IMG/VR virus record: IMGVR_UViG_3300030329_001879
Coordinates: 1-34,483 of that record
Reading direction: 5' to 3' (one strand)
DNA length: 34,483 nucleotides
Origin: a virus
Below the pieces are notes generated by a model. The model made no database searches. It was given only the letters and a program-made list of their open reading frames with translations, and had not been told where the DNA came from. Numbering within the stretch: position 1 is the stretch's first letter; every line of letters starts with the position of its first letter. Shown one piece after another: positions 3,840-32,586 of this stretch. A program made the position numbers and the translations under genes.

Positions 3840-4047
3840 GAACAGTGAAGAGAAACGGTTTTACTTTGTACACAACAGCAAGGTTGAGATACTAAGCGAT
3901 GACGCACTGGTGGAAGAGAAGCACGAAGCAGATATCTATGTTGCTATATTCCGTAGGGTAAAGGACAAACTTAACTGTGCTGAACGAAACAGAGTTAACC
4001 AGATAAACAGAGAGATAAAGAAAAGAGGAATAAGACTAAAAAAATAA
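3748..4047 (+). CDS. basic hypothetical protein overlapping the nuclease gene
   Basis: A 99-residue protein in another frame. AAGGAGG at 3735-3741, six bases before ATG 3748, is the best ribosome site in the neighbourhood, which would make the gene start 92 bases inside the nuclease gene. A later ATG at 3832 would reduce the overlap to 8 bases but has only a weak site. The shared C-terminal part (EEKRFYFVHNSKVEILSDD, then ADIYVAIFRRVKDKLN and a Lys/Arg-rich tail ending in RLKK) looks like a folded small alpha/beta domain. No family is recognised. It is the last gene before the structured non-coding block. Confidence 0.55.
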   Translation: MSLVNNRFSSMLARLDSGNQDVTSGKSGMGKNSEEKRFYFVHNSKVEILSDDALVEEKHEADIYVAIFRRVKDKLNCAERNRVNQINREIKKRGIRLKK

Positions 4048-4368
4048 CGGCTACGAGGTAGGAGAAACCGTCCGTTTAACCCAGATTGCAGGGGGTTTTT
4101 ACAAGGAGAATCGCAAACAGTTCTCTGGAATTCGTTCCCTCTGCACCGTCATTTGTTAGTGACGGCTATCGAAATAGGGCACCTTCCTATGGTTGGTACC
4201 AACGCATGTGCCTGTGTTCTGGGGGGTGTAGCTTAGAAGGAATAAGCTGCGTATACCCATCAGGCTCTCCTTAAACTCCGATACTCCTGTGAACTTGACG
4301 GTAGATGTTACAGCAGGTGTAGCTAGTCCTGAGCATGACACGAAACTGCTCTCACTTTGGAGGTGAGT
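4048..4368 (+). ncRNA. candidate structured RNA (about 320 bases)
   Basis: A gene-free stretch between two + strand genes with back-to-back hairpins: GAGAA 4106-4110 with TTCTC 4121-4125; GGAA/TTCC closing a TTCG tetraloop at 4127-4138; CCGTCA 4146-4151 with TGACGG 4160-4165; CTAT/ATAG 4166-4177; GGCAC 4178-4182 with GTGCC 4208-4212 enclosing GTTG/CAAC; and GGGT+GTAGCTTA 4224-4235 with TAAGCTGC..ACCC 4243-4258 over a 7-base GAAGGAA loop. ACCGTCA 4145-4151 can instead pair with TGACGGT 4296-4302. GGCTAC 4049-4054 could close the whole with GTAGCT 4319-4324. It matches no tRNA, tmRNA, RNase P or riboswitch class that I can recognise by eye. Confidence 0.5.
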
Positions 4369-4593
4369 ATGAATATTAATGCTGTTGAACAAACGTGTCA
4401 CAAAGGATGCGGTTGGCGTGAAGCCTATATGAGGCAGACCGAAATTGTAAAAGCAATGATGGAAGAATCTGACCAAGTATTCCTAAAGACACGGGATATG
4501 GTTCGCTTCCTTAACGATATATCTGGACAGGCAACAGAACAGAAGCCTGACTATACAAGCAATACTAGCAGGAGGCGGTATAAGTATGACTGA
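4369..4593 (+). CDS. small helical hypothetical protein
   Basis: A 74-residue protein starting at ATG 4369 with GGAGG at 4359-4363. That ribosome site lies in the loop and 3' arm of a hairpin (CTCAC 4351-4355 with GTGAG 4363-4367), so translation could be gated by the upstream RNA. The product has CHKGCGW near the N-terminus, a helical middle (REAYMRQTEIVKAMMEESDQVFLKTRDMV) and a basic, tyrosine-containing tail (SRRRYKYD). It overlaps the ATPase gene by 8 bases, so the two are probably coupled. No family is recognised. It might be a helicase-loader-like or accessory partner of the ATPase, judging only by position. Confidence 0.55.
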   Translation: MNINAVEQTCHKGCGWREAYMRQTEIVKAMMEESDQVFLKTRDMVRFLNDISGQATEQKPDYTSNTSRRRYKYD

Positions 4594-5920
4594 TTTAGAG
4601 GTAACAAAGAGGGGAACAATTATAGATGTGAATTTCCCCAGCCAACGGGTATACCTCAGGGCAGAAAGATTACGTGATGGAGGAGAGAAGTTTACAACTG
4701 AACTGTCAGTAGACGCTGAACTCTCTATGAATAATGCGTACAACAAGGTACGCCTTAACCGTAGCAACGCAGATATGCTGAACAACAATGTGAAGAAATC
4801 TTTGATAGCTACATTGACTGAAGCCACTATGGACTACCCGTATATTATGTGGGGCAATATTATCAATGAGGGCTTTGAAGCAATTATGGATAAGCACAGG
4901 GAAGGCGTGCCAGCTACGCAGATGTCCGTGCTTGATGAACACTACCCACGTAGCTACGCACTGTTCCCTTTCTTCACGAAGGGTGTAGCCAATCTGGTAT
5001 GGGCACCGGGAGGCTCAGGTAAATCGTACCTAGCTTTACTTACGTCCGTACTCGTTGACCGAGGCATGAGTGCCTTGGGTCTACGGGCACCGAAAGGCAA
5101 CGTCCTGTATCTGGACTGGGAAGAAGAGGAGAATGTATTTAAACAGAGACTCTTTGCAGTACAGAAAGGACTGGGTGTAGGTAATCCCGAAACATCTGGT
5201 ATCTGGTACAAGAGAATGGCAGGTACTCTGGCTAATAACATCGAGGCTATCTCAAGGGTAGTTGTCGATAACAATATCACCTACGTAGTAATAGACAGTG
5301 TTAACCCTGCACTCGGTGGTAAGAGTAACGACTCTGACGCTGTAGAGGATTACTTTGATGCACTGCGAATACTGGAAGTAACCAGCGTCTCGATAGACCA
5401 CGCTAACAAGATGGGAGAGACTACTGGTAAGTACCAGATATATGGTTCGTCATTCAAACAGGCTCGTGCCCGTCAGATGTACGAGGTAACCAAGATGCAG
5501 GAGAGTGACTCTGGTGAGTTGAAAGTTGTCATGCACCACAGGAAGGCAAACGACTTTGGGACTATAGGTCCCAGAGGTTTCACAATTAACTTTGAGATGG
5601 TCGATAAGTACAACAGCTTGGAGGACGATTACGAAAAACAACTAGATGTAGTAAGATTTGACACGTTAGGTCTAGGTGATGACAGTGGCAACTTACTCAG
5701 AGGAGAAGGTGTAACCACTATTTGTTACCAGCTAGTAAAGGCACACGGAACTATGGAGGTAGAAGAACTCAGAAGTAGGGTGTCTACCATCAAGGACAAC
5801 GATGTCACACTAGATGCCATTGAACTGGCTGTACAAAACTCCAATATGCTCAAGCTAAATGAAGAAGCAGGAACTGTTGGATTAGCACAGGAGGAAAAAC
5901 AATGGGAAGTCCAGAAATAA
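4586..5920 (+). CDS. RepA-like RecA-fold ATPase (replicative helicase/recombination ATPase)
   Basis: A 444-residue protein. After an N-terminal region of about 125 residues comes a RecA-fold core: Walker A APGGSGKS at 140-147, an acidic NVLYLDWEEEE strand at 172-182, Walker B TYVVIDS at 232-238, and a VSIDHANK strand-end at 268-275 typical of RepA/RAD55-type (AAA_25) ATPases. The C-terminal 70 residues look like a winged helix (GVTTICYQLVKAHGTMEVEELRS). Such proteins are hexameric helicases or helicase loaders in phage and plasmid replication, and the adjacent nuclease and RusA resolvase support a replication/recombination module. GGAGG 4571-4575 precedes the start with 10-base spacing. Confidence 0.8.
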   Translation: MTDLEVTKRGTIIDVNFPSQRVYLRAERLRDGGEKFTTELSVDAELSMNNAYNKVRLNRSNADMLNNNVKKSLIATLTEATMDYPYIMWGNIINEGFEAIMDKHREGVPATQMSVLDEHYPRSYALFPFFTKGVANLVWAPGGSGKSYLALLTSVLVDRGMSALGLRAPKGNVLYLDWEEEENVFKQRLFAVQKGLGVGNPETSGIWYKRMAGTLANNIEAISRVVVDNNITYVVIDSVNPALGGKSNDSDAVEDYFDALRILEVTSVSIDHANKMGETTGKYQIYGSSFKQARARQMYEVTKMQESDSGELKVVMHHRKANDFGTIGPRGFTINFEMVDKYNSLEDDYEKQLDVVRFDTLGLGDDSGNLLRGEGVTTICYQLVKAHGTMEVEELRSRVSTIKDNDVTLDAIELAVQNSNMLKLNEEAGTVGLAQEEKQWEVQK

Positions 5921-6707: not shown

Positions 6708-6796
6708 AGATTAAACTAGCTTTATTGGGAATTAGTACAGCACTTGTAGCTATAGGTGCCAGTGTTATCTACAAGGTCAAGAAGAGTCAGACGTAA
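6704..6796 (+). CDS. 30-residue single-pass membrane microprotein
   Basis: A short frame at an ATGA overlap with the resolvase gene. The product is MKIKLALLGISTALVAIGAS followed by VIYKVKKSQT: a basic N-terminus, one hydrophobic helix at residues 5-23, and a basic tail. It resembles a tiny type I membrane peptide or a minimal holin/pinholin. The coupled start suggests it is translated. It is the last + strand gene of the left arm, and its 3' end overlaps the convergent minus-strand membrane protein gene by 20 bases. Confidence 0.5.
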   Translation: MKIKLALLGISTALVAIGASVIYKVKKSQT

Positions 6797-6953
6797 TAAC
6801 ATCCTTACTGAGGGCTATGATGCCAGCTGCACACACGCCTGATATCTCGTTCATGTTCTTAAACACGCCCAGTATAGCTATGACTCCCAGTATTAATATT
6901 GCCACTAAGACCTGAGGTCGTATGTGGATTATTTCCCACCATCGTTTTGGCAT
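6777..6953 (-). CDS. 58-residue membrane protein, last gene of the late arm
   Basis: This frame reads MPKRWWEIIHIRPQVLVAIL then ILGVIAILGVFKNMNEISGV and a polar tail. It has one strong membrane helix (about residues 14-31), a basic and Trp-rich N-terminus, and a second mildly hydrophobic stretch (VCAAGIIAL). A good site, AGGAG, lies six bases before the ATG at 6953. Being the distal gene of the late operon and a small membrane protein makes a holin-like or lysis-regulating role a reasonable guess. No endolysin was recognised to pair with it. It overlaps both the gene upstream (6929-6953) and the convergent + strand microprotein. Confidence 0.55.
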   Translation of the reverse strand: MPKRWWEIIHIRPQVLVAILILGVIAILGVFKNMNEISGVCAAGIIALSKDVITSDSS

Positions 6954-7135
6954 TCTTCACTCCTGTCCTCATCGTTTGCCGGGACTCGTTTAACTTGTCC
7001 GTAATGAAATAATAATTTATGGTTCTGTAGTGTGTAGTTTAACATTACATCTTCCGTGTTCTTAGGCAGGTTATTGTACTGCTTCTCAAGCCAAGAGCAA
7101 GTATCACAGTGTCTTGTTACGCCTTCATTAGCCAT
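6929..7135 (-). CDS. small hypothetical protein with CDTC motif
   Basis: A 68-residue protein from ATG 7135 (a GTG at 7144 is in frame and also possible; neither has a clear ribosome site). The N-terminal part has HCDTCSWLEKQ, and one further cysteine lies near the C-terminus (EECQNDGG), so a metal site is possible but incomplete. The composition is hydrophilic and charged. It sits in the late arm between the membrane-anchored 441-residue protein and the 58-residue membrane protein and overlaps the latter by 25 bases. No family is recognised. Confidence 0.45.
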   Translation of the reverse strand: MANEGVTRHCDTCSWLEKQYNNLPKNTEDVMLNYTLQNHKLLFHYGQVKRVPANDEDRSEECQNDGGK

Positions 7136-7186
7136 GCTGACCACACTATTATGTTAAATAGAATTAGAAATCTAATCACTTAGTAT

Positions 7187-8512
7187 TTATTCGTTACCCT
7201 TATCAAGAGCAGGTTCAGAGAAAACCAATTCAACATTGTCTGTAACTGTCCAGTTAGCACCCGTTACAGTTGAGCCTACTTCAAATTCCTTTGTAACCAA
7301 GTTACCGTCATGACCAACTTCATTCTGTAGAATCTTTAGAACACCGATGTCCATGTTTTTAAAGGTACAGCTTCCACCCTTCGTCCATAAGTTACTTAGA
7401 GTTAGCTTTCCTATCTTTCCATTAACCCCGGAGTTAGGAGCATCAATCCATATACGGTCATACGTACCACCGCTAGTTACCATAGCCTCTGCCTGATGAT
7501 GACCACCACCTATAGCCCTGTTCCTAGCGTTACCACTAGTCTGTGTTATGGATTGTCCATCACTGGCATTATGTTCAATGACTATCGTATGAGCATCTAT
7601 ATCGGAGAAGTCCATAGATTTACAGCGTGACTTCTCAACTATAAATGTACCTATCTGTAACCGTGTTCCAGTAAAAGCATTGTCTCCTGTAACAGTTGGG
7701 TTACCTGAAATTAATACTGCTTCAGTACAGGCTGTGCTTCCATTAGAGCCACAGGTAGAAGGCAATGCAGAAACCTTTTGCCCTGCAGCATCTCCTGAAT
7801 AAACTGTTCCTGCTGATACATTCTCAATAGTAATCTCTCTTACTGGTACAGCACCTAGGTTAATCCTTAACGTGTTGTCTTTATCATCAAAGTAAGAAGG
7901 GGTATCCAGTGGAGCAAGGTATACACCTGAGTCTCCGTTTGAGAATGAACGTTCTGCCAGTACTGTCTCGTTAACTATGACTCCAGTACCTGCAGTAGAG
8001 CCTACTGCGAGTAGACCGATAGCCATCTGTGGATTTAATCCAAGGGCACGAAGTAAGCTGTATGGAGACTTGAGTACATTGAAGGTTCTTTTCCATTTGG
8101 CTGACTCGCCATTAAGATATTCAATCTTGGCAAATAGCCAGTCACGCCACGAGCATACCTTCCTGTATGCAGAGAGAACCTGACGAGGGAAGGACCGTAT
8201 ACCTCTGCGTACCTCAGGCTGTATGAGTGCCATTAGTAACAGTCCGATTGATACGGAAAGAGTTGCAATCCAGTTCTCATTTAACGAGACAACAATACCA
8301 TTAGTGTAAACCAGTGCAGGTTCTAACCAACATCCTGTGTAGATATAGTAATCAATACACGTAGTTACATGAGGTTCAATCCACATAATTGGATTGGTAT
8401 AGGAAATTAGTATTCCAAGGGTACCTGCTACTACTAAAGCAATGATTAATAGTATGCCGAACACTACCCCCAGATTACCCAACGAAACTTTAGGTATCTT
8501 GAAATCGGGCAT
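7187..8512 (-). CDS. membrane-anchored beta-rich protein
   Basis: A 441-residue protein with a hydrophobic, helical first part and a beta-rich remainder. Membrane segments are visible near residues 11-38 (GVVFGILLIIALVVAGTLGI), 75-93 (IATLSVSIGLLLMALI) and 157-178 (MAIGLLAVGSTAGTGVIV). From about residue 180 the sequence is Ser/Thr/Gly/Asn-rich with regular short strands and three or four cysteines, like a beta-helix or beta-sandwich. It could be a late protein inserted in the host envelope, or a virion protein contacting the membrane during DNA entry. GGAG seven bases before ATG 8512 supports the start. No enzyme motif or family is recognised. Confidence 0.55.
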   Translation of the reverse strand: MPDFKIPKVSLGNLGVVFGILLIIALVVAGTLGILISYTNPIMWIEPHVTTCIDYYIYTGCWLEPALVYTNGIVVSLNENWIATLSVSIGLLLMALIQPEVRRGIRSFPRQVLSAYRKVCSWRDWLFAKIEYLNGESAKWKRTFNVLKSPYSLLRALGLNPQMAIGLLAVGSTAGTGVIVNETVLAERSFSNGDSGVYLAPLDTPSYFDDKDNTLRINLGAVPVREITIENVSAGTVYSGDAAGQKVSALPSTCGSNGSTACTEAVLISGNPTVTGDNAFTGTRLQIGTFIVEKSRCKSMDFSDIDAHTIVIEHNASDGQSITQTSGNARNRAIGGGHHQAEAMVTSGGTYDRIWIDAPNSGVNGKIGKLTLSNLWTKGGSCTFKNMDIGVLKILQNEVGHDGNLVTKEFEVGSTVTGANWTVTDNVELVFSEPALDKGNE

Positions 8513-13580: not shown

Positions 13581-15538
13581 GGTTCCACCAACGTAATTCT
13601 AGATGAACCTCGTTCATCGTATCCTGTATATTCAATCCCGGTAGCTGATGTTACATCTACGTAGTAGTTACGTGTTCCACCACTATCATCTCTAAATGTA
13701 AATTCCTGTAATGTATTTGATTCTATGGAACTTACTAAATTATTTCTTAATTGCTTGGGGTCGTTACCTTTATAGGTAGTATTAAGGTCTACCTCTACAG
13801 TATGTCCATACTTGGCTTCCAGTTTTTTTCTGTATTCCAGAGTAAGAGACACAACGTCTGGGGATTTAGTTGTATCACTACTTCCACGGGCAAGAGTTAA
13901 CTTAAACTTGATTGACCTAAAACTAACACCAACTGGATTATCAGATGTAGGAAGCAAAAAAGTTTGCGTTCCTTCTGTAGCCCCCAGTGTAGTACTGGTA
14001 ATAGTTGTTAGGTCTGTATAGGAAGTTGAATAATCAGTAGCGTAAGATACTCCTACTGTTTCGTCTGATGAAGCATCCTGCACTTCTACCTTTAACTTTA
14101 TAGCCAGCTTATCTACTTCTGTTTGCTGTGCATCAAACCAAGGGGTTTCATGTGTACCTGATGATTCATACGCATAGTCTGTTCCCTCAACAGCTACTAA
14201 CTGAGATGGATTAGTTACATCAAAAGGAATTAATTGACTGTAAACCTGACCATCCAATCCCCACCATAACCTGTAATCACCCTTGCCAGCATTAGATACA
14301 AGCATTTTATCTACTGCCTTACCAGCCTTTGCAGCTGGAGCAACCCATTTAGTTTCCCATCCTGTATCGTTCCACGCCACTATGGATGACTGTCCACTAC
14401 TTGCAGCAATTACGTTCTGACTACGTGCTGATGAACCAGAAGTAGCACCACCCTGCCACGGTATATCTGTAGCTGCCTGTGCCCCCGGTGCAGTAGTAGC
14501 ATCTATTGCTGCTATCAATTCTGTATGGGTACCTACTAATTGTTTAATGGTTCCCCTATATGTTGCAGGAATACCATCGTCTCTGTCTGGTCCCATAACT
14601 GTAATAACAGCGTTATTGCTACCGTTAATATATTTATATATACCAAGACCGCTTGGGGTGTATATAGAATCACGCCACCTTACTGAACCCGTTCCATTAA
14701 AGTTATGAAAGGGTAACTGAAACTGTGTTTCTACCCATCTTTGATTAGCGTAATCATGAGCATAAAGTCCCGTTTTAGTAGCTGAATAGATAATCTGTTC
14801 ACCAGTGGCATCCCTACCAACAAATAAATCTGTTACGTAGTCATTCTGTACAGGTAGCTTGGCATCATTAACAGGAGTGCCATCTATAGTAAGCGTGTAC
14901 CAAAGTTGCCCTGTGCTATCTATTCCCCATAACCTATCGTCCCAGTATGTAAGAAAGTTAGCATCTGTTGTTTTGTCAGTTACCGTAGTGGCAGAGGAAA
15001 AATAACTATACCCTCCACCATGGGCAACAACTATATAGTCTGTACCGCCCATTCTTACAGTAATAGAATCTGTTGGGTCAGCAGGAAAACTATACGCACT
15101 ACTACTATGAGTTACCCTAGTCCACCTATCGTTAGCTTCACTGTAGTAATAAGGAGCAGTTGAATAACCTGCATACAGTACTGTTCCTAAGTCCTGTATA
15201 AATGTTATTGCTCCCTGTATAGAAGTATCGTCAGCATCCTGTGCGGTAGTTGCCGTAGATAATGCTGGTAATACTAGGTGATGTCTATGCCTAAGGTTAC
15301 AGGTAGAATACCAAGCCCTGTCAGCATCAGATGCTCCCTGCATTCTTTCAACACCAATACCGCCACGCCAATCAGACCAAGAAATAATAGAGGAACGTAG
15401 ATTGCTGTCTCTGGTAGTGTCCCCAATGGTTACTTTAGCTGGATATATAGATGCCAGTACGCTCTGTACGGGGCGATTCAACGGGTAATAAGTACCCCCA
15501 AGATATATCTCGTTATCGTCTACTACCTTGCTTGCCAT
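13577..15538 (-). CDS. beta-propeller-like tail protein (nozzle/tail-tube B candidate)
   Basis: A 653-residue protein. From about residue 100 to 430 are repeated W/Y-rich blades with regular alternation (LGTVLYAGYSTAPYYYS; TYWDDRLWGIDSTGQLWYT; QIIYSATKTGLYAHDYANQR; IYTPSGLGIYKYINGSN; DYRLWWGLDGQVYSQL), characteristic of a propeller. The C-terminal 200 residues are beta-sandwich-like with LTLEYRKKLEAKYGHTVEVD. In podoviruses the nozzle protein (gp12 in T7, gp10 in P22) is of similar size and carries a propeller, and the gene lies directly after the putative adaptor, as here. This is an inference from architecture and order. Confidence 0.6.
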   Translation of the reverse strand: MASKVVDDNEIYLGGTYYPLNRPVQSVLASIYPAKVTIGDTTRDSNLRSSIISWSDWRGGIGVERMQGASDADRAWYSTCNLRHRHHLVLPALSTATTAQDADDTSIQGAITFIQDLGTVLYAGYSTAPYYYSEANDRWTRVTHSSSAYSFPADPTDSITVRMGGTDYIVVAHGGGYSYFSSATTVTDKTTDANFLTYWDDRLWGIDSTGQLWYTLTIDGTPVNDAKLPVQNDYVTDLFVGRDATGEQIIYSATKTGLYAHDYANQRWVETQFQLPFHNFNGTGSVRWRDSIYTPSGLGIYKYINGSNNAVITVMGPDRDDGIPATYRGTIKQLVGTHTELIAAIDATTAPGAQAATDIPWQGGATSGSSARSQNVIAASSGQSSIVAWNDTGWETKWVAPAAKAGKAVDKMLVSNAGKGDYRLWWGLDGQVYSQLIPFDVTNPSQLVAVEGTDYAYESSGTHETPWFDAQQTEVDKLAIKLKVEVQDASSDETVGVSYATDYSTSYTDLTTITSTTLGATEGTQTFLLPTSDNPVGVSFRSIKFKLTLARGSSDTTKSPDVVSLTLEYRKKLEAKYGHTVEVDLNTTYKGNDPKQLRNNLVSSIESNTLQEFTFRDDSGGTRNYYVDVTSATGIEYTGYDERGSSRITLVEP

Positions 15539-30989: not shown

Positions 30990-32354
30990 TTACCAACGCC
31001 TTACACTAATTGTCTTATTATCGGCTATATATCCGTAACCATATCTGTTAATTAGACCGTATATTACAGCTTTAACTCCGTGGTTATATCTGTCTTCCGG
31101 GGTCTGCCCTACTATATTACCATCCCGGTCCATTTTCCAGCGATAGGCACGGGTCTGTCCATCGAAAGGGTTTGGCTGTACTCCGAACTCAGATAAAATT
31201 CCCTTACATTTAGGATTAAAAACTATCCTAGGGTCCCTCTGGTCAACGGGGTCTGTCTTCAGAAAAGACTTTAATCTTTCGGTTCCCTCGTTGATTCTTA
31301 TTTTTTCTGAATCAAAAAATATTCCTGTCCTTTCCAGCCACACTTCTGCAGGAGCAGCCATCGCCTGATGCTGATTCCCTGCGATATCTATCACTCCGAA
31401 CTGTGCATCTCTCCACCACGGCTTGGACTGTGCGATATCTATTATCTCGTCAGTAACCAGATTTCTTTCGTATATTTCGTCTATCACACGCACTTGGTCG
31501 CCTACCACCTGAACTATTTCACAGGCATAAGCCTCCGAATAACCGGGGTCAATCCAGATATGGACGGGAACATCGGGTTCATACTCGACATCCTGAACGT
31601 GTATGTCAGGTCTGATTTCGTTAAAGACCATACCCTGTGGAGGTGAGGGTATGCCTTCTATTCTTTCCATAAAGAAATCGTCTGACGCAGCACGTTCCAA
31701 TGCCAGAATTTCAGGGTCCTCTCTGCCACCGGGGTATAAATACTGGTTTGAATAGCTTGGAAGTGAGAAAGATTTTTCGTCCTGCCCAGCCGAGTGTTGC
31801 CACGACTGGTACATCTGTGGATACCAGCCCAGTGAACCTTCAAATGTTCCTGCCAGAAACAACCACCCTCTCTTCGGGGCACATCTTCCTCTAAGCCTGT
31901 TGAAAGTTTCTAGGTCCAGCTGGCTTGCTTCGCAGCCAATTATCCCGTTAGGTGCCCTCATAGCTAGAGTTCGTGGGTCTTTAGCAGATTTAGTCTCTAT
32001 TCTTGTACCGTCTGCGAGGACTATCCTGCCGGGGTCTACTCTTTTAGATGCTTCAGCAAGCAGTCCTAGCTTTGCAAAGTCTTCAACTAGATACTCAAAC
32101 TCTGCTCTGGTTCTCTCGTAGTCAGCTGCGACCAGCCAGTACAGTCCTGCATCGTCATTTTCCAGAAATCTTCCCAGTAAATACTTGGATGCGACCATAG
32201 ATTTGCCAGCTTGCTCACCACCAGCCACCAGAATAAAGCGTTTTCTTGAAGCTAGGATAGGTTGCTGCAGCGGTGTAGGGGAGAAATCTATTTTTTCATA
32301 GATGTAATCGGCAAGTTCATTAATCTGGTAAGGTGAATTCGTAGATTGAGTCAT
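30990..32354 (-). CDS. terL: terminase large subunit
   Basis: A 454-residue packaging motor (counted from ATG 32354). The ATPase domain has Walker A AGGEQAGKS (about residues 44-52), an adenine-motif neighbourhood LQQPILASRKR, a Walker B-like IIGCEASQLDLE (about 137-148) and a coupling LAGTFE (about 169-174). The nuclease domain has HIWIDPGYSE with the first Asp (about 265), FGVIDIAG with the second, and a terminal DRYNHGVKAVIYGL with the third, the RNase H-like acidic triad that cuts concatemer DNA. A GTG two codons earlier (32360) is also possible. The gene overlaps the 89-residue gene by 35 bases. Confidence 0.92.
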   Translation of the reverse strand: MTQSTNSPYQINELADYIYEKIDFSPTPLQQPILASRKRFILVAGGEQAGKSMVASKYLLGRFLENDDAGLYWLVAADYERTRAEFEYLVEDFAKLGLLAEASKRVDPGRIVLADGTRIETKSAKDPRTLAMRAPNGIIGCEASQLDLETFNRLRGRCAPKRGWLFLAGTFEGSLGWYPQMYQSWQHSAGQDEKSFSLPSYSNQYLYPGGREDPEILALERAASDDFFMERIEGIPSPPQGMVFNEIRPDIHVQDVEYEPDVPVHIWIDPGYSEAYACEIVQVVGDQVRVIDEIYERNLVTDEIIDIAQSKPWWRDAQFGVIDIAGNQHQAMAAPAEVWLERTGIFFDSEKIRINEGTERLKSFLKTDPVDQRDPRIVFNPKCKGILSEFGVQPNPFDGQTRAYRWKMDRDGNIVGQTPEDRYNHGVKAVIYGLINRYGYGYIADNKTISVRRW

Positions 32355-32586
32355 GTTCACTTACATATATCGGGGTCATATCCCCCATATACGCTCCCAG
32401 AATGTTGTATTCATAGAACTCTTCTGCCTCTTCGTGTGTCATTTCCTCGGAAAGAATCTCAATTATCTTGTTTGCAGAATAAACAACCCTCAGTGAAGCG
32501 TCATCCTGACCGATAATTGCCTGTTCATACTTCTTAATCTCTGCCTGAGTGCTACCTAGAAGTACAGGTAACTCACCATCAACCAT
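32320..32586 (-). CDS. 88-residue acidic protein between the terminase genes
   Basis: A small acidic helical protein (VDGELPVLLGSTQAEIKKYE; NKIIEILSEEMTHEEAEEFY; YEYNILGAYMGDMTPIYV) placed between small and large terminase genes and overlapping both. ATG 32586 fits AAGGAA five bases upstream, and a second ATG at 32589 is just before it. The middle, IIEILSEEMTHEEAEEFYEYNI, resembles a short acidic helix pair found in small phage proteins around terminase genes. It may assist terminase assembly or act as an inhibitor. No family is proven. Confidence 0.6.
   Translation of the reverse strand: MVDGELPVLLGSTQAEIKKYEQAIIGQDDASLRVVYSANKIIEILSEEMTHEEAEEFYEYNILGAYMGDMTPIYVSEHDSIYEFTLPD

Follow-up and report, generated by a model that had tools for sequence, protein, structure and literature searches.

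Among the features of the phi29 pRNA are a closing helix, a three-way junction, and a pair of loops whose sequences, of the AACC/GGUU type, are complementary. In purine-class riboswitches, P1 closes two arms that have their loops in contact. Few phage noncoding RNAs are well defined, and the prominent GOLLD and ROOL RNAs are still without a function. These two phage RNAs can multimerize through such loop contacts (PMC12286853). The put RNA of phage HK022 is approximately 70 nt long, has two stem-loops, and lies close to early promoters (PMC9378689).

We analyzed a 34,483-nt stretch of viral DNA (the window), in which a structured RNA had been predicted at positions 4048 to 4368. Judged by comparison with its relatives, this gap encodes a genuine structured RNA that evolution has kept, its sequence changing while the core fold stays. 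By Rfam, it matches no known RNA family.

Locus, relatives, and database searches

The original prediction of a gene-free gap was borne out: in the open reading frame (ORF) list, nothing is encoded from the end of the upstream ORF (stop codon at 4045-4047) to the ATG at 4369. The gap had also been placed directly before a replication ATPase. There is an AAA ATPase (RepA-like, with a PF13481 match) at 4586-5920 on the plus strand, but the next gene is a small one of 74 amino acids on the same strand (4369-4593), which opens at the ATG at 4369, 3' of the RNA, and had no match in a Pfam search. A conserved protein frame across 4086-4274 had been named as the competing explanation. However, this 62-amino-acid ORF is not kept in the relatives when the upstream region is aligned, because most of it is an insertion of approximately 100 nt that is missing from them.

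Other parts of the window were also annotated. A small early-operon protein (2444-2956), which may regulate transcription, matches sigma-70 region 4 (PF04545; E value, 1e-5). At 6708-7186/7187-8512, the replication and structural operons converge. A homologue of the 7187-8512 protein was found in 10 of 15 records searched, and the convergence region (6708-8512) is without a strong terminator-like hairpin. The closest cultured-phage relatives of the terminase large subunit (30990-32360) are from Microbacterium, Gordonia, and Mycobacterium phages (approximately 25% identity), a weak hint about the host.

Relatives were collected with the ATPase as the query. One search returned six close contigs (86 to 87% identical), and a search with an ATPase sub-alignment returned 52 distant loci (27 to 58% identical). 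Among the distant loci, an RNA profile matched L026/L027 and L042. A degenerate DNA pattern (GGTNGANGTTNCANCAGGTGT) added L085; its other matches were without the rest of the motif and were taken as chance. Another pattern (CTCCGATACTCCTGTG) found the known six contigs only, plus chance matches. The sample is five lineages only, some from short contigs: the window and the four lineages with homologues (L002-L011, L026/L027, L042, and L085), whose ATPases are 30 to 87% identical to that of the window. With a P5-region covariance model (CM R1), the window scored 61 bits and the other copies 55 to 64 bits, and the next best of 49 records scored 19. Structural descriptors run over all loci recovered the true copies and nothing else above reversed or shuffled controls. 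Two sites considered as further copies (L038:11301 and G041:7906) turned out on inspection to be chance matches.

An Rfam search and a test of covariation had been named as checks of the original prediction. With Rfam 15, the window had no match at the gathering score, and nothing was found up to an E value of 10 at 3900-4600 or in L009. L042, L085, and L026 gave sub-threshold chance matches only, and L038 gave none. A tRNA/tmRNA scan found none, and BLAST searches of phages and plasmids with the RNA as the query gave short chance matches only. The ATPase and the RNA pattern were absent from 84,980 bacterial and archaeal genomes; therefore, no host was assigned. The phage, plasmid, and bacterial/archaeal searches found no cultured phage or bacterial genome that carries the RNA.

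Core fold and covariation

The core, module A, is a pseudoknotted RNA on the plus strand, as are all of its parts, and runs from P1 to P1' (4048-4325), with homologues in the four other lineages. In all five, its order is P1, P2, a free AACCnnn, the variable domain, the P2 3' strand, a 4- to 6-nt joint, P5, one U, and P1'. Its size is approximately 125 to 280 nt across the lineages.

The predicted closing helix is real and covaries. It is P1, in which GGCUAC (4049-4054) pairs with GUAGCU (4319-4324), and the relatives have GGCUAC/GUAGCC (L9), UAGCUAC/GUAGCUA (L026), AUGUCAC/GUGACAU (L042), and UGUCAC/GUGACG (L085). In all five lineages, the P1 3' strand starts exactly 16 nt past the pseudoknot GGU. 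P2 pairs GGAG (4061-4064) with CUCC (4276-4279), and GAGG at 4055-4058 is an equal alternative for its 5' strand. Its counterparts are GGGU/GCCC (L026), GGCC/GGCC (L042), and GGGC/GCCC (L085). The P5 hairpin (4286-4317), supported by covariation, has two segments, P5a (4286-4290/4313-4317; CUUAC/GUAAG in L026 and CCUGU/ACAGG in L042) and P5b (4292-4294/4307-4309; AUU/AAU in L026), and carries nnnGGU in its apical loop in every lineage. Earlier versions of P5 (4287-4292/4308-4313) and P2 (4059-4064/4266-4271) were replaced after more lineages were added.

Inside the P5 apical loop, GACGGU (4297-4302) pairs with ACCGUC (4067-4072). This loop pairing (6 to 7 bp) is ACCGUU/AACGGU in L9, ACCACU/AGUGGU in L042, ACCAAA/UUUGGU in L085, and ACCAUC/GUUGGU, with one U-U, in L026. 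Three of its six pairs are altered on both sides, and the kept loop nucleotides are AAC...GGU[UA]GA..GUU.CA. Two mutually exclusive pairings had been predicted for ACCGTCA (4145-4151), with 4160-4165 or with 4296-4302. The latter segment does pair, but its kept partner is ACCGTC at 4067-4072 and not 4145-4151, and the 4145-4165 pairing is absent from the nearest relatives.

The P3 stem (CCCAGA/UCUGGG; 4080-4085/4218-4223) encloses a variable peripheral domain (4080-4223), which is approximately 100 nt longer in the window than in L002-L011. In the alignment of the upstream region, two well-kept blocks (4048-4100 and about 4205-4370) flank this window-only stretch of approximately 100 nt, which contains the ACCGTCA hairpin (4145-4165) and a UUCG hairpin. 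The predicted GGAAUUCGUUCC is present, yet it is located in the variable insertion. The predicted stem with a purine GAAGGAA loop is also present, as P4 (4226-4235/4243-4252), and one-sided changes in L002-L011 (U-G to U-A and G-C to G-U) retain its pairing. However, it has 10 bp, including three G-U pairs, and not 12 bp.

The core pairs covary across the five lineages. In a composite core alignment (A7), for which the linkers were removed and the registers set by the analyst with the structure in view, 96.8% of 125 cells were paired, and 13 of 25 pairs were altered on both sides. On four of five measures, none of 500 shuffles reached the observed value, and slid partners were 31 to 52% paired. 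Alignment A6 (MAFFT, with the variable domain alone excised) was less subject to such choices; it was 99.0% paired, with both-side changes in 10 of 20 pairs. Unconstrained minimum free energy folds of L042 and L085 recovered P1, P2, and P5 and left the AACC strand of the loop pairing free. On the plus strand, the core has six G-U pairs versus two A-C pairs. Therefore, the plus strand is the RNA strand. The lineages also differ by indels within the RNA region. Together, the covariation and the G-U excess mean that DNA-only and protein-frame readings are disfavored. A phage structural RNA of no recognized class, as originally predicted, is what the covariation and the Rfam result support.

The window itself has a folding z score of -1.3 to -1.5 (7 of 100 shuffles were equally good in one run, with z = -1.5), versus -4.2 for L042 and -2.7 for L085. 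Its folding energy by itself would not have revealed the structure, and the evidence is comparative. Such an RNA would be missed by an Rfam search or a folding z score on the window alone. Between the window and L009, the 3' part of the RNA is 92% identical, the ATPase 85%, the exonuclease 77%, and the small neighboring genes 67 to 73%. The 74-amino-acid gene has 67% nucleotide identity, far under that of the RNA.

Genomic positions and downstream hairpins

Comparison of the lineages establishes the conservation, fold, and strand of the RNA and also its two genomic positions. Its place is 5' of a small gene and the ATPase in the window, L002-L011, and L026/L027. The L042 and L085 copies instead start at the stop codon that ends the final gene of the replication operon, which has an exonuclease, the ATPase, and small genes that include a TubC_N-like one. 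A 12- to 14-bp hairpin and convergent genes come next, with no gene of that operon 3' of the RNA. Therefore, the function that the lineages share is not regulation of a downstream gene. RNA carriers fall into two separate groups of the ATPase tree, with at least two changes of label. The lack of the RNA in L043, the sister to L042/L085, is uninformative because its contig stops before the operon end. The hairpin directly after the RNA, AAGCCCC(A)...GGGGCUAUUU, is terminator-like (4730-4775 in L042 and 573-610 on the minus strand in L085), with compensatory changes between the two phages.

Exactly at the L042/L085 position, the end of the replication operon, L038 (in a third ATPase group) has an RNA of the same topology and unrelated sequence (13588-13728). 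Its P1 has 8 bp, its loop pairing 10 bp, and its P5 7 bp, and none of 3000 shuffles was as good. A terminator-like hairpin is 3' of it (13737-13770). No RNA of this topology was seen at the other junctions tested. The L038 RNA is therefore a lead rather than a result.

In the window, two hairpins follow the core. Module B (GAGCA-NGA(C)NNNAAAC-UGCUC; 4331-4351, plus strand) has its stem changed to GAGUA/UACUC in L026. Further copies are in L027 (four, at 456, 808, 1281, and 8774) and L043 (two, at 2249 and 2288), where the hairpin stands without module A at the other sites, and in L045 (8790). The consensus over the copies is (C)CUGAGCA-NG[AU]NNNN..AAAC-UGCUC, with compensatory stem changes. 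The L027 hairpins are located between genes, three of the four preceding other operon genes, and the tandem pair in the L043 leader lies between a promoter-like TTGACC-17-TATACT and a terminator-like hairpin. From this distribution, module B looks like a separable regulatory or processing element. A boxA/NusB type of recognition for module B was dropped, since L045 keeps the stem and not a boxA-like sequence.

The last hairpin (CUCAC/GUGAG; 4351-4367, plus strand) contains the ribosome site of the next gene, as predicted, with GGAGG (4359-4363) just 5' of the ATG at 4369. It is invariant in the window and L002-L011 and was not found in L026, L042, or L085.

Function of the RNA and comparison with known systems

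The RNA is probably an undescribed noncoding RNA of (marine) phages that is transcribed with the replication genes and is trans-acting or a scaffold, not a switch for the next gene. Its core is a three-helix junction (P1, the P2 arm, and the P5 hairpin), locked by pairing of AACCnnn, next to P2, with nnnGGU in the P5 apical loop, and the P2 arm bears the size-variable peripheral domain. The RNA shares the strand of the replication/recombination operon, with which it is transcribed, and may persist in its folded form after processing or termination. It would then act in trans or as a scaffold, and its probable partner during replication is a protein of the phage or the host. We infer the trans function from position alone. 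For the 74-amino-acid gene, the window hairpins at 4331-4367 would form an element of their own that serves processing or the start of translation. The replication-operon position gives a direct hypothesis about the site of action, and a compact RNA (approximately 125 nt at minimum) with a covariation-backed fold lends itself to in vitro synthesis, probing, and structure determination.

The original prediction also offered a switching leader. As a riboswitch or a protein-operated switch, such a cis leader would control translation of the 74-amino-acid gene and the ATPase via the 4351-4367 hairpin. We consider this unlikely, although three lineages (the window, L002-L011, and L026/L027) have the RNA directly 5' of these genes. 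Around the ribosome site, 30 nt do not vary among the window and L002-L011 despite the divergence of the gene 3' of it, and a cis role in that lineage would also be compatible with this invariant P6-P7/ribosome-site stretch. GGAGG is a possible pairing partner for the unpaired invariant CUCC segments, as is 4365-4370 for 4281-4286. However, a position upstream of a regulated gene is inconsistent, since the L042 and L085 cores come last in the operon, with a terminator-like hairpin and convergent genes beyond them. Furthermore, L026 has not kept the ribosome-site hairpin, and there is no conserved alternative pairing with an expression platform; the one predicted at 4145-4165 is in the nonconserved insertion.

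Quite unlikely is a 3' untranslated or intercistronic element that keeps exonuclease off the mRNA or marks where it is processed. The compact, loop-locked core always lies inside a single transcription unit or at its end, and further hairpins or a terminator-like hairpin are 3' of it, all of which would suit this role. Even so, the kept loop nucleotides and the size-variable domain exceed the needs of a block.

The covariation indicates that the two loop strands pair, which is compatible with pairing within or between molecules. If AACCnnn/nnnGGU pairs between molecules, then the RNA would form a defined multimer or scaffold in phage replication and be a kind of its own, and the L038 RNA would be a fast-evolving version of it. 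We give this a small chance.

It is very improbable that the RNA is a nascent-RNA element that makes polymerase ignore terminators, as HK022 put does. The RNA is in an apparent early operon and precedes a terminator-like hairpin in L042 and L085, and the two module B hairpins of L043 are flanked by a promoter-like site and a terminator-like hairpin. However, put has approximately 70 nt and two stem-loops by early promoters (PMC9378689), whereas the core is a pseudoknotted three-helix RNA in the middle or at the end of an operon. Conservation at the DNA level, as a replication origin or a protein-binding site, is hardly credible: replication genes are on both flanks and GTGTAGC occurs twice, with a near complement once, but both strands of four helices and of the loop pairing have compensatory changes, G-U pairs occur with few A-C, and the position in the operon shifts.

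As a noncoding RNA that probably acts in trans or as a scaffold, the RNA can be set beside the known systems. HK022 put is likewise a phage RNA within an early transcription unit but is without a three-helix core or loop pairing, both features of the RNA here. Three-helix riboswitches (e.g., the purine class) share the general topology, whereas the RNA here has no Rfam match, is not consistently 5' of a gene, and has a long variable domain on one arm. The phi29 pRNA has the same closing helix, three-helix junction, and complementary AACC/GGUU-type loops, a likeness compared by Rfam only, where its model had no match in the window or at 3900-4600. It is encoded by a gene of its own and works in a phi29-type packaging motor, whereas this phage has a terminase large subunit and its RNA lies in the replication operon. 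GOLLD and ROOL likewise had no family match (Rfam, window and 3900-4600), and they are 659 to over 800 nt long and often near tRNA islands, whereas the RNA here has approximately 125 to 280 nt and a place in the replication operon. What they have in common with it is that they are orphan structured RNAs of phages and prophages, noncoding, with loop pairings, variable regions, and a function that is unknown (PMC12286853).
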